This document shows, piece by piece, positions 3,575-33,163 of a DNA stretch of 64,000 bases (positions within the stretch are counted from its first letter, which is position 1; every line of letters starts with the position of its first letter). The stretch covers positions 186,001-250,000 of the forward strand of contig JAURZM010000079.1 in assembly GCA_030653385.1 (NCBI GenBank), read 5' to 3'. The position numbers and the translations under genes are program-made. The DNA is from Rubrivivax sp. Its GTDB lineage: Bacteria; Pseudomonadota; Gammaproteobacteria; Burkholderiales; Burkholderiaceae_C. The notes beneath the pieces are model-generated. The model did no database searches. It had not been told where the DNA came from and saw only the letters and a list, made by a program, of their open reading frames with translations.

Positions 3575-4249
3575 TCAGGCGCCGGGCGGACGCGGACGCG
3601 GCCGACGAAGCGCCAGCGCCAACAGGCCCAGGGCCAACAAAGGCACGGTGCCGGGGCTGCTGACCACCAGCAGGTCACGGGTTTCGAAGTGCAGCGTCAA
3701 GGTTTGCAGGCCAAGCCGGGCCCACGGCCCAGCGATCAGAAAGCCGCCTGCGCTGAGGCCGTTCCAGGGGGTCGTGGCCAACCAGCCCACATCGGGAAAA
3801 TAGTCGACGAACAAGAGGTCGCCGCTGCCCGTCAAGCCCGTGGCAGAAAACGCGGTCAGCGCCACCGGGCGCGCCAGGTCCAGGCCATTGAGTCCGTCGG
3901 CACCCCCGATCGAGCCAATGCCCACGGCGGCCGACAGCAGGCTGTCCGGGAACGGATCACCGCCAGAGAAAGCCAGCGCGATGTCGATGGCGTAGCGGCC
4001 GCTGCCCAGATCGGTCTGCGATTCCTGCACCGTCAGGCTGACCGGGCCGTCCGTTCGGTGCACAAAGGTCTCGGCCACGCCGTCGAAGTTCAGGCTGTGC
4101 TGTGAAAAGCCGCCGGGCGTCGAGGCCTGGGTCAACGACACGGTGTAGCTCGAGCCGGCCAGCACCACGGGCGCGGCCCGCGCTGGGCTGACCGCGAACA
4201 ACAGGGCGCAGGCCAGTCCGGCGCCGCACAGCGACAAGGGCAATTTCAT
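3575..4249 (-). CDS. Secreted protein with PEP-CTERM-like C-terminal sorting tail
   Basis: Signal peptide MKLPLSLCGAGLACALLFAVSPARA; C-terminus SSPGTVPLLALGLLALALRRPRPRPPGA (hydrophobic helix plus Arg cluster). Start placed at MKLP. Confidence 0.65.
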   Translation of the reverse strand: MKLPLSLCGAGLACALLFAVSPARAAPVVLAGSSYTVSLTQASTPGGFSQHSLNFDGVAETFVHRTDGPVSLTVQESQTDLGSGRYAIDIALAFSGGDPFPDSLLSAAVGIGSIGGADGLNGLDLARPVALTAFSATGLTGSGDLLFVDYFPDVGWLATTPWNGLSAGGFLIAGPWARLGLQTLTLHFETRDLLVVSSPGTVPLLALGLLALALRRPRPRPPGA

Positions 4250-4314: not shown

Positions 4315-4333
4315 GGCGTCACGCGGGCGTCAC
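4315..4333 (-). promoter_or_regulatory. Two 11-bp-spaced GTGACGC direct repeats upstream of the PEP-CTERM-like gene
   Basis: gcgtcac on + strand at 4316-4322 and 4327-4333, period exactly 11; overlaps the 3' end of the SARP-like gene. Confidence 0.45.
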
Positions 4334-7300
4334 GCGCGCCGCCAGCTGGCGCAGTTCGGCATTCACCGGATTCAGGCGGCGCCAGCCATCGCGGTACATC
4401 TCGTCCAGGTGCTCTTGCGCCACCTGTTCGACAAATGCCAGCCCCTGCTGCACGGCACGGCGGGCTTCGGCCGCCTGCCCACAGGCCTGCGCGGCACGGG
4501 CCAAGGTCAGCCAGACCTCGGCCGGGCTCATGTCCAGCGGCTGCACCGCGCCCAGCCAGTCGGCGGCACGCTCGGCCGCCCGCAAGGCCCGTTCGTGCTG
4601 GCCCAAGGCCAGGCAGGCCTGCGACAGGCGCACGTGCAGCGGCAGGGCGGCCCCGGCATTGCCGCTGGCGGCGGGCTCTTCCAGCGCTTTTTCCATCAGC
4701 GTCAGCGCATCCTGCGGTGGCAAGGCCATCGCTTCCACGAGCCACACCCGGCGCAAGGCACGCCGGTAGCCGCCGGCCAGCAGCGTGGTCTTGGCCGTGG
4801 CCAGCATCTGCAGCGCCTGTTCGGGCTGCTGCAGCTGCAGGGCCAGGCGTGCGCGCACCAGCAGCATCACGGCTTCGTCGGCAGCGCTGTGCGTGGCGGC
4901 CTGTGCACGGTCGAGTGCCTCGCGTGCCAGGTTGACCCGGCCCAGTTGCAGCCACATCGCGGCTGCCTGGCGCTGCAGGTCGTCTTCGCGGTGGTGTTGC
5001 TGGCCCAGGCTGCGCGCCCGTTCCAGGTGGGCCAGGGCCTCGCGCCAGCGGCACAGGCTGCGTGCGCTGGCGCCCAGGCTGATGCACAACATGGTTTCGA
5101 CCAGACTCTGGCTGCCGGCCACCGCGCGCAGCGCGGCCAGCCGATGTTCATGCGCCAGCTGCACCTGGCCCCGTTCTTCCAGCGAAATGGCCAGGTTGTT
5201 CAGCACCCGCGCCCGGGTCGTGGGGTCGGGCTGGCGTTCGGCGGCTTCCTGCATCAGCGCGATGGCTTCCAGGTGCTGGTCCTGTTCCTGCAGCACCAGG
5301 CCCAGGTTGTTCAGCACGCTGGGCAGATCGGGGTCGAAGCTGCCGGCCTGGGCCGCCGAGCGGCTGAGCGCCAGTGCCTGTTCCAGCGTCTGGCGCGCCG
5401 GCACCAGCTGGCCCAGACGCCGCTGCAGCACACCGTGGGCATTCAGCAGCGCCACCCGCTGCGACACCGGCGCCTGTTCGTCCAGCAATTGCAGGCCGCG
5501 TGCGGTGTGGGCCGCCGCGCCCTGCACGTCGCCTTGCGCCAGGCACAGTTCGGCTTGTTGTTTGCACACCGCGGCGCGGTGGCTGTCGGTGCGGGCCAGC
5601 GTTTCCAGGCGCTGGATGGCGGTTTCGATGGCCACCCCCGTGGTCTGTGTGCGCAACGCATTGGCCGCGGCCAGCGCGGCTTCGAAGGCCTGCTCGGCCT
5701 GGCCGGCGGCGGCGTGCATGTCGGCCAACTGGCCCCACAGGCGTGCGGCTTCGACCACGTCGTAGGCACGCGCGGCGGCGTCGGCCGCCTGGCGCAGGTG
5801 CGGTGCAGCGCGTGCCGGCTGGCCGGCCGCCAACCAGTGGCGGCCCAAGGTGGCCGGCGCCACGCCGGCACGGCCTTCCAGCTGCTGCGCCACCTCGGCG
5901 TGCAGGTGGCGGGCGATGGCCACCGGCACCGAAGCCAGCGTGGCCTCGAAGACCAGGTCGTGGGCAAAGGCCTGGTCGCGCAGCACACCCGCCGCTTCGA
6001 GCTCGGCCCAGGCGTCGGCCAGCGCCAGCGCGGGGGTCTGCAGCACATGAATGGCCAGCGGCGTGTCGAACTCGGTGCCGGCCACGGCCGCACAACGGGC
6101 CAGCGACAGTGCTGCCGGCGACAGCTGCGCCAGGCGCCTTTCGATGAGCCGGGTCACCGAAGCCGGCCGGCCCAGCGCCGGCCGGCCGCCCGAGCCCGGC
6201 GCGCCGGGGGCGATGGCATCGACCCCCAGCTTCAGCGTTTCCAGCACGAACATCGGGTTGCCGCCCGTGCGCCGCCACAGCACCGGTGCGAGCGCTGCAC
6301 CATCCAGCCCCGGCAGGCCCAGGCTGTCCACCAATTCGGCCAGCGCCGCTTCGTTCAGCGGTGCCAAGGCCAGGTGCTGCACGTGCAGCGTTTCCAGCAG
6401 AGCGTCGTGCAACTGGTGCAGCGGCCCGTCGGATTCGGCCGGGCGGTAGGCCAGGGCCCAGCGCAAGGGCTGGCCCGGCTGCCCCTGGCGCTGCGCGAGG
6501 TCGTCCACCAGCAGCGCCTGCAGCAACTGCAGGCTGGCGGCGTCGGCAAAGTGCAGGTCGTCGATGGCCACCAGGCCCAGCGCCGCTTGCGCTTTCTGGC
6601 GGTGGGCGTCCAGCAACTGCTGCACCGCACGCTGCAGCACCAGCCGTGTGCCGGCCCCTGCCAGGCCCGGCGCCAGCGGCGCGGCCAGGTCGGGGCCGGG
6701 TTGCCAGTCGGGCAGCACGGTGGCCAGGGCCTGGCGGCTGGGTGCGTCGATGGGCGAGGCCAGGGCCGGCAGCGCCCGCAGCAGGCGCGCCAGCGTCGAC
6801 AGTGGCACCGCCGCGTCACCGGGCCGCGCCGCCACCAGCACCTGGGCGGGTGTGCCCAGCCTGGGCCCCGACAGACTGGCCACGTGCGGCAACTGGGCCG
6901 CCAGGTGCTGCAGCAAACGCGACTTGCCCATGCCGGCTTCGGCCACCAGGGCCACCACGCGGCCCTGGCTCCAGGCCGTCAGCGCATGGCCCACGTCGGC
7001 CTCGCGCCCCACCAGCCGGGGTGGGCGCAGCAGCGTGGCGGGCAGGCCCACCGCCAGCGCACTGCTGCGTGGCGCGGCGGCCGTGTCCAGCAGCGCACGC
7101 AGGGCGCGGGTTTCTTCGCCAGGGCCCAGACCCAGGTTGCGCCGCAGCACCTGTTCGCAGCGCTGGTAGGCGGCCAGTGCGGCGGCACGGTCGCCCAGCA
7201 GGTAATGCAGGCGGATGACACAGCGGTGCGCGGCTTCCAGTTCGGGCTCGGCATCCAGCCAGCCCAGCGCCAGTTGCAGCGCCAGGCCACAGTCGGACGC

Positions 7301-7726
7301 AACTTCGGCCTCTTGCACGGCACGGGCACAGCGCTCGCGGCACAGGGCACGCCGGCGATCGCGTTCGTGGGCCAGCCAGTCGGCAAACTCACCGCCCGCC
7401 ACGGGCGACAGGCCCTGCAGCAGCGTGTCGGCACCTTCCAGGTCGTGCGACACACCGGGCGCCAGGCCCAGCACCTGCTGGCCGACGACCAACTCATGGC
7501 CCACGGTCTGGCGCAGCTTGTACAAGCGCTGGCGCAGCGCGCCACGGGCGGAACTGACGTCGCCATCGGGCCACAGCAGTTCGGCCAGGCGGCCGCGGGG
7601 TGTCAGGCCCTGCAGGGCCAGCCAGGTGAGCAGGGCAGCGTCCACTGGCTGCAGCGGGCACAGCTTGCCACCCACCTGCACGGCAGGCTGGGCACGCAGC
7701 GACAGCGCGATCGAGCTCATCTGCAT
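4319..7726 (-). CDS. SARP/BTAD-type transcriptional regulator with AAA ATPase and TPR repeats
   Basis: 1135 aa; N-terminal winged-helix/BTAD region (LTWLALQGLTPRGRLAELLWPDGDVSSARGALRQRLYKLR...), AAA domain (READV...VALVAEAGMGKSRLL), C-terminal TPR-like repeats. Confidence 0.75.
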   Translation of the reverse strand: MQMSSIALSLRAQPAVQVGGKLCPLQPVDAALLTWLALQGLTPRGRLAELLWPDGDVSSARGALRQRLYKLRQTVGHELVVGQQVLGLAPGVSHDLEGADTLLQGLSPVAGGEFADWLAHERDRRRALCRERCARAVQEAEVASDCGLALQLALGWLDAEPELEAAHRCVIRLHYLLGDRAAALAAYQRCEQVLRRNLGLGPGEETRALRALLDTAAAPRSSALAVGLPATLLRPPRLVGREADVGHALTAWSQGRVVALVAEAGMGKSRLLQHLAAQLPHVASLSGPRLGTPAQVLVAARPGDAAVPLSTLARLLRALPALASPIDAPSRQALATVLPDWQPGPDLAAPLAPGLAGAGTRLVLQRAVQQLLDAHRQKAQAALGLVAIDDLHFADAASLQLLQALLVDDLAQRQGQPGQPLRWALAYRPAESDGPLHQLHDALLETLHVQHLALAPLNEAALAELVDSLGLPGLDGAALAPVLWRRTGGNPMFVLETLKLGVDAIAPGAPGSGGRPALGRPASVTRLIERRLAQLSPAALSLARCAAVAGTEFDTPLAIHVLQTPALALADAWAELEAAGVLRDQAFAHDLVFEATLASVPVAIARHLHAEVAQQLEGRAGVAPATLGRHWLAAGQPARAAPHLRQAADAAARAYDVVEAARLWGQLADMHAAAGQAEQAFEAALAAANALRTQTTGVAIETAIQRLETLARTDSHRAAVCKQQAELCLAQGDVQGAAAHTARGLQLLDEQAPVSQRVALLNAHGVLQRRLGQLVPARQTLEQALALSRSAAQAGSFDPDLPSVLNNLGLVLQEQDQHLEAIALMQEAAERQPDPTTRARVLNNLAISLEERGQVQLAHEHRLAALRAVAGSQSLVETMLCISLGASARSLCRWREALAHLERARSLGQQHHREDDLQRQAAAMWLQLGRVNLAREALDRAQAATHSAADEAVMLLVRARLALQLQQPEQALQMLATAKTTLLAGGYRRALRRVWLVEAMALPPQDALTLMEKALEEPAASGNAGAALPLHVRLSQACLALGQHERALRAAERAADWLGAVQPLDMSPAEVWLTLARAAQACGQAAEARRAVQQGLAFVEQVAQEHLDEMYRDGWRRLNPVNAELRQLAARVTPA

Positions 7727-7742
7727 CAGATTAAACCCCGCC

Positions 7743-7771
7743 GCGTCACGCCAGCGTCACGGCTGCGTCAG
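7743..7771 (-). promoter_or_regulatory. Three 11-bp-spaced (C/G)TGACGC direct repeats upstream of the SARP-like gene
   Basis: Repeat starts at + strand 7743, 7754, 7765; minus strand reads TGACGCAGCCG TGACGCTGGCG TGACGCGGCGG GGTTTAATCTGATG. Confidence 0.6.
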
Positions 7772-7898: not shown

Positions 7899-9089
7899 AT
7901 GAACCTGATCGAACCCATCCTGGCCGACGTGGCCACCATCACGGCCATCCGACGCGATATCCACGCCCACCCCGAACTGTGTTTCCAGGAAGAGCGCACT
8001 GCCGACGTGATTGCCAAGGCGCTCACCGACTGGGGCATTCCCATCCACCGCGGCCTGGGCAAGACCGGTGTTGTGGGCATCGTCAAAAACGGCACGTCCA
8101 GCCGCGCGGTGGGCCTGCGCGCCGACATCGACGCCTTGCCGATGACCGAACACAACACCTTCGCGCACGCGAGCAAGCATGTGGGGAAAATGCACGCCTG
8201 CGGCCACGACGGCCACACCGCGATGCTGCTGGCCGCCGCCAAACACTTCAGCCGACACCGCAACTTCGACGGCACCGTCTACCTGGTTTTCCAGCCGGCC
8301 GAAGAAGGCGGTGGCGGCGCGCGCGAGATGATCAAGGACGGCCTGTTCGAGAAGTTCCCGATGGAGGCCATCTTCGGCGCCCACAACTGGCCCGGCATGC
8401 CAGTGGGCACGGTGGGCCTGAACCCGGGTGCGGTGATGGCCAGCAGCAACGCCTTCCGTGTGGTCATCCGCGGCAAGGGCAGCCACGCCGCGCTGCCCTA
8501 CATGGGCATCGACCCCATCCCCGTGGCCTGCCAGATGGTGATGGCCTGGCAGACCATCATCACGCGCAACAGGAAGCCCATCGACCCGGGTGTCATCAGC
8601 GCGACCATGATCCACACCGGCGAGGCCATCAACGTGGTGCCCGACTCAGCCGAGATCCGCGGCACCGTGCGCACTTTCAGCATGGAAACGCTGGACATGA
8701 TCGAGCGCCGCATGCGCGAAGTGGCCGAACACACCAGCGCGGCCTTCGGTGCCACCTGCGAGTTCGAATTCACGCGCAGCTACCCGCCCACCATCAACCA
8801 CGCCGCCGAAACCGAATTTGTGCGCCGAGCGCTGACACCCGTGGTGGGTGCCGCCAGCATCGTGCCCTTCGAGCCCACGATGGGCGCCGAGGACTTCAGC
8901 TTCTTCCTGCAGGCCAAGCCGGGTTGCTATTTCATGCTGGGCAACGGCGACGGTGAACACCGCGAAGGGGGCCACGGCATGGGCCCGTGCATGTTGCACA
9001 ACCCCAGCTACGACTTCAACGACGAGCTCATCCCCATCGGTGCCAGCTGCTGGGTGAAGATTGCCGAAGAGTGGCTTGCGGCCAAGTGA
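7899..9089 (+). CDS. M20 family metallopeptidase / amidohydrolase (hippurate hydrolase-like)
   Basis: 396 aa; RADIDALPM, HACGHDGHTAMLL, EEGGGGAREM, GAEDFSFF motifs. Confidence 0.9.
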   Translation: MNLIEPILADVATITAIRRDIHAHPELCFQEERTADVIAKALTDWGIPIHRGLGKTGVVGIVKNGTSSRAVGLRADIDALPMTEHNTFAHASKHVGKMHACGHDGHTAMLLAAAKHFSRHRNFDGTVYLVFQPAEEGGGGAREMIKDGLFEKFPMEAIFGAHNWPGMPVGTVGLNPGAVMASSNAFRVVIRGKGSHAALPYMGIDPIPVACQMVMAWQTIITRNRKPIDPGVISATMIHTGEAINVVPDSAEIRGTVRTFSMETLDMIERRMREVAEHTSAAFGATCEFEFTRSYPPTINHAAETEFVRRALTPVVGAASIVPFEPTMGAEDFSFFLQAKPGCYFMLGNGDGEHREGGHGMGPCMLHNPSYDFNDELIPIGASCWVKIAEEWLAAK

Positions 9090-33119: not shown

Positions 33120-33163
33120 ATGCTAGCGGCCGGATCGCACCCGGTGCGTCACCTGCGCGTCAC
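33120..33163 (-). promoter_or_regulatory. Two 11-bp-spaced GTGACGC repeats and TAGCAT -10-like element upstream of the oxidoreductase gene
   Basis: gcgtcac on + strand at 33146-33152 and 33157-33163; minus strand TAGCAT at 33125-33120. Confidence 0.4.

Follow-up and report, generated by a model that had tools for sequence, protein, structure and literature searches.

SARP regulators have, to our knowledge, been studied almost solely as activators of antibiotic production in actinomycetes. They bind to direct repeats that are 11 bp apart, the last one being 8 bp from the −10 element (PMC10936776). In AfsR of Streptomyces coelicolor, the SARP fold is extended by ATPase and TPR domains; its afs box has direct repeats 11 bp apart near the −10 that overlap the −35 region, and a side-by-side AfsR dimer on this box replaces the sigma contact with the −35 element (PMC10936776). 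AfsR controls afsS and antibiotic production. SARP-LAL regulators, PimR among them, join a SARP domain to a LAL-type AAA/TPR half, and the main operator of PimR is composed of three heptameric repeats with 4-bp spacers, which gives an 11-bp period (PMC5930380). Its half-site is CGGCAAG, its target is a pathway regulator in an antibiotic cluster, and the operator is clear of the −35 region. EmbR of Mycobacterium tuberculosis shares the winged helix and BTAD fold (2fez/2ff4), but it has an FHA domain and no AAA or TPR domains.

No description of a SARP operator in betaproteobacteria was found in the open-access literature. PrsK and PrsR reportedly take part in the control of PEP-CTERM genes in the betaproteobacterium Aquincola. 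One case of RpoN-dependent control of such genes is reported (PMC9850573); the system uses sigma-54 and not a SARP. Here we describe predicted SARP-type operators in the window, which is the whole 64,000-nucleotide stretch of DNA that was analysed, and in related genomes.

The regulator and its triple repeat

The regulator gene is located on the minus strand at 4319-7720. The listed open reading frame begins at 7726, and the start was set at the second ATG (7720) by alignment with the 65% orthologue. The protein matched the Pfam families BTAD (residues 122-211), AAA_16 and TPR, whereas neither Trans_reg_C nor the N-terminal receiver domain that marks PhoB/OmpR proteins was matched. The AF2 model of the first 230 residues had a pLDDT of 92.9, and the best Foldseek matches of the N-terminal domain were AfsR in the transcription initiation complex (8k60, 8hvr) and EmbR. 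When the single N-terminal domain was used as the query in phmmer, EmbR was the only SARP relative found; a family profile was needed to reach AfsR, which was then matched across the domain (E 5e-11). A profile of the winged helix alone gave no PDB match. The N-terminal domain is modelled as a SARP domain like that of AfsR, with an OmpR-type winged helix (AF2/Foldseek) followed by the BTAD, and the C-terminal half carries the nucleotide-binding (AAA_16/STAND) and TPR domains of the large SARPs. A Pfam match to BTAD alone marks the family poorly at genome scale, since it was also obtained in control genomes such as E. coli and B. subtilis, and the analysis relied on the full-length protein instead.

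The predicted operator (7743-7770, minus strand) contains three exact TGACGC units at 7770-7765, 7759-7754 and 7748-7743. Their period is exactly 11 bp, as the preliminary description had read it in front of the SARP-like gene. From 7770 to 7720, the minus strand is TGACGC-agccg-TGACGC-tggcg-TGACGC-ggcggggtt-TAATCT-gATGcagATGagc. The distance to the −10 had been given as 7-8 bp, and this is correct for TTTAAT, which follows the last unit after 7 bp. The −10-like hexamer TAATCT at 7728-7733 (minus strand), however, follows after 9 bp, or after 8 bp when the heptamer TGACGCN is counted instead of the hexamer, and comparison with the relatives identifies this as the conserved register. The 11- or 22-bp period of SARP operators and their distance of about 8 bp between the 3' repeat and the −10 are thus found here and conserved in relatives, and the three units with an 11-bp period resemble the main operator of PimR. 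The half-site TRACGC and the match of the ATPase to AAA_16 set the system apart from AfsR, as do the predicted targets, which comprise the regulator's own gene and betaproteobacterial genes whose products are exported or located in the membrane.

Shuffled sequences gave an expectation of 0.01 exact TGACGC-N5-TGACGC pairs for the window, which has four. Two are inside the triple, one is at 4316-4332 and one at 33146-33162; the last two are absent from the preliminary description, and the exact triple is found only once. The first ATG (7726) is only 1 nt past the −10, whereas the second (7720), which is 7 nt past TAATCT, corresponds to the start of the 65% orthologue in the alignment. In a survey of 57 genes of the family, 16 −10-like hexamers occurred, 11 of which end 6-8 nt 5' of the start codon, and this supports the earlier proposal of a leaderless or nearly leaderless start near 7720.

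Conservation and genus-wide distribution of the sites

The nearest orthologue, with 65% identity (G035:C33, L038), has the upstream sequence TGACGC-tgccg-TGACGC-cacgcgcac-TAAGCT-cgtgccc-ATG. The half-sites, the −10, the 9-bp gap and the 7-nt distance to the start are kept, and the spacers have diverged. In the 55% orthologue (G031:C65, L039), TAACGC-ccgcc-TAACGC is followed after 8 bp by TATGCT. The two closest orthologues therefore keep the 11-bp TRACGC repeats, a positive outcome of the upstream comparison suggested in the preliminary description, but the third, most distal unit is absent from the 65% orthologue. The divergent M20 peptidase-family gene (Pfam; 7899-9089, plus strand) is retained there. 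At the level of sequence, the conservation in relatives shows that the repeat is a functional element.

GTNAC pairs were counted upstream of 93 homologues for spacings between 6 and 40; spacing 11 alone accounted for 10 of them, and the remaining spacings together for 8. For the TNAC/GTNA pairs at spacing 11, a TANNNT begins 9 bp past the second hexamer in six of seven cases and 8 bp past it in the other one, and none was found elsewhere within 30 bp of these seven pairs. In 25 further homologues there were three pairs, with TA at 9 bp in L177 and L192 but not in L184. A generic search, in which every 7-mer recurring 11 bp apart counted as a match, had given no clear result because it was swamped by the GC-rich background, and the restriction to GTNAC or TNAC resolved the signal. 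When 57 regulator loci were scanned with 1.5-kb flanks, T[AG]ACG[CG] pairs occurred 26 times at spacing 11 and 2, 0, 3, 0 and 0 times at spacings 9, 10, 12, 13 and 14, respectively; with a TA 8-10 bp downstream, the counts were 20 at spacing 11 and none at 9, 10, 12 and 13. Many homologues of the regulator family lack such a repeat in the promoter of their own gene, and autoregulation is therefore not shared by all of them.

The strict pattern TRACGC-N5-TRACGC-N9-TANNNT gave 16 matches in 60 same-genus genomes and none when reversed. In a 300-genome draw of the order with the own genome excluded, 5 matches were found versus 8 for the reversed pattern, and one of the five (G323) is in the same family, beside a SARP gene. 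Because there is no enrichment across the order, the element is a property of the one genus. A looser form (TRACGS, TA) gave 51 matches versus 9 in the control. Within 1.5 kb of a regulator homologue lay 22 of the 51 (0.12 expected), and 26 lay within 5 kb. The other 25 are more than 5 kb from any listed regulator match; some of them are probably due to chance, given the 9 in the control, and some may mark distant targets. Sites were present in 23 of 40 same-genus genomes with a regulator homologue and in 0 of 16 without one (Fisher P 4e-5). When the −10 was not required, exact TGACGC pairs occurred 7 times in the own genome against 3 in the reversed control, which makes the pair without a −10 a weak genome-wide predictor.

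Predicted targets

The second predicted operator, TGACGC-N5-TGACGC at 4316-4332 (minus strand), has a layout shared with other genomes. It is located 9 bp before CATGCT, a weak −10, and the regulator uses the TGA within the second half-site as its stop codon (codons GTG ACG CCC GCG TGA). An apparent coincidence of the half-site T(G/A)A with the stop codon of the preceding gene was seen at 4319-4321 of the window and at L045 4741 and L197 1482, and further at L155 8671, L156 13212 and L157 8120. The predicted target of the second site is the gene at 3575-4249 (minus strand), which encodes an exported protein with a degenerate PEP-CTERM-like C-terminus; the NCBIfam match to the PEP-CTERM C-terminal domain is weak (E 0.019), and the own genome has two exosortases. 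A possible third site, the exact pair at 33146-33162 (minus strand) upstream of an oxidoreductase-like gene, is a weak candidate. It has no −10 at 9 bp, but TAGCAT follows at 20 bp (9+11) with a degenerate third unit in between.

In the related genomes, the regulator's own promoter is usually without a site, and most often the regulator is followed by a site and then by a gene of the same orientation. The window's arrangement recurs in G008:C31, where one site precedes the regulator and another the next gene, which encodes RCC1 repeats. In G018:C28, the end of the regulator is followed by a site and an RCC1 gene, and in G012:C3 the order is site, lipoprotein, regulator. In G035:C83, a site precedes an Ig/RCC1 lipoprotein gene and a regulator fragment is near. 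This contig (L161 222-3279) combines an operator-like pair with fragments of an M20 gene and of a regulator, and C83 may represent a decayed second copy of the window locus, as its gene content suggests. Sites also precede TpsB-type two-partner secretion genes (L155 8671, L156 13212, L157 8120). The three orthologous TpsB loci (G063, G007, G031) keep the TAACGC half-sites and the −10 and differ in the spacers, and no regulator was found near them in the fetched region. The assignments of the RCC1, Ig and TpsB-type transporter neighbours are backed by Pfam.

Short open reading frames of about 60-75 amino acids with a hydrophobic segment at the end were found in G075:C9, G063:C11, G004:C35 and G007:C41, two of them longer when read mechanically. 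Such a frame follows the regulator and operator at L190 4847+, L175 1400-, L045 4741+ and L044 301-, with an ADAADR.LLRLVLCAAAATLVLALA-like C-terminus. These short frames apparently belong to an undescribed family of small membrane proteins. Most targets begin with a hydrophobic, signal-peptide-like stretch, as estimated from hydropathy only and not with a signal-peptide predictor. No antibiotic or secondary-metabolite cluster was noticed when the gene maps around the sites were read, and the neighbours encode exported proteins. The autoregulation inferred in the preliminary description would be one use of the site; in most relatives the site precedes the neighbouring gene for an exported or membrane protein.

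Predicted half-site recognition and the proposed mechanism

The base of the half-site covaries with a residue in the recognition helix of the SARP domain. By an ungapped offset from AfsR Trp74 to Trp50, this helix position would correspond to Ser91 of AfsR, and the adjoining Arg92 of AfsR contacts bases (PMC10936776). Regulators linked to TAACG have the helix LRQRLF or similar, with Phe at the variable position in all 17 that were read. The six linked to TGACG have Tyr (window, G035), Leu (G008, G017, G323) or Ala (L184) there; the resulting counts of 17:0 versus 0:6 are not phylogenetically independent, as the TGACG side represents about three lineages.

PhoB/OmpR proteins likewise rely on direct repeats of 11 bp that immediately precede the −10, and a winged-helix regulator of this type might own the sites, with the SARP genes merely among its targets. 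About half of the looser sites are not beside a SARP gene, which would fit. PhoB, however, is near universal, yet the sites were enriched only in the genus that has this SARP family and were absent from same-genus genomes without the regulator. In addition, the half-site tracks the SARP recognition helix, and the sites that were inspected adjoin SARP and exported protein genes but no recognisable phosphate genes. A PhoB-type box is unlikely for two reasons: the element is taxonomically restricted, and phosphate genes are missing from its surroundings.

It is similarly improbable that the regulator is a repressor at its own promoter and that any activation by it is confined to the neighbouring target. 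The direction of autoregulation is unreadable from sequence and a site overlapping the −35 position would suit a repressor too, but no recognisable −35 was found at the usual distance in the regulator promoter, and the distance from the repeats to the −10 fits activator SARPs (PMC10936776). Chance or GC-rich coding repetition without function can practically be dismissed. The second window site does overlap regulator codons in part; the conservation and enrichment data, with four exact pairs in the window, 16 matches to 0 in the genus and a spacing and −10 register fixed across independent loci, already contradict this explanation.

We therefore favour, with a probability of roughly 0.78, that the repeats are SARP-type operators read by their own SARP-STAND-TPR regulators and are placed at the regulator itself and at adjacent genes. 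The SARP fold, the repeats and their spacing are apparent from sequence analysis, and the orthologue footprint, the genus restriction and enrichment, the clustering at regulator genes and the covariation of helix and half-site support the SARP-type operator first proposed in the preliminary description. Since the geometry in the window matches that of AfsR and PimR, the regulator is read as an activator of its own gene and of the adjacent gene for an exported protein. Binding, activation, a signal input and the targets are what we infer for these SARP-type operators. Protomers of the regulator would line up next to one another on the repeats, each taking one 11-bp turn, and would recruit RNA polymerase from the −35 position of a promoter in which a −10 is present but a good −35 is missing. 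At 7743-7770, the regulator would thereby regulate itself positively, with an mRNA that starts at ATG 7720 and has no leader or almost none, whereas the second copy at 4316-4332 would switch on the PEP-CTERM-like protein gene at 3575-4249. Across the genus, related regulators would act on their own genes and, in more cases, on a neighbouring gene whose product is exported or sits in the membrane.

A broader reading, for which the odds appear even, is that one genus has an expanded SARP-STAND-TPR family that works through local operator cassettes as insulated surface-protein switches. The cassette genes would encode exported, PEP-CTERM-like, RCC1/Ig-repeat or small membrane proteins, and the half-site would be set by a single helix position, with Phe for TAACG and Tyr, Leu or Ala for TGACG. 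If this is true, it would be a SARP regulon outside antibiotic production. Because the operator is conserved with a fixed geometry, its half-sites follow a readable code and the predicted targets are adjacent, the function of a large and uncharacterised family of regulators can be tested. The predicted role points to regulated cell-surface proteins and not to secondary metabolism, and what is known in Streptomyces as a switch for antibiotics appears to have been put to new use at the cell surface.
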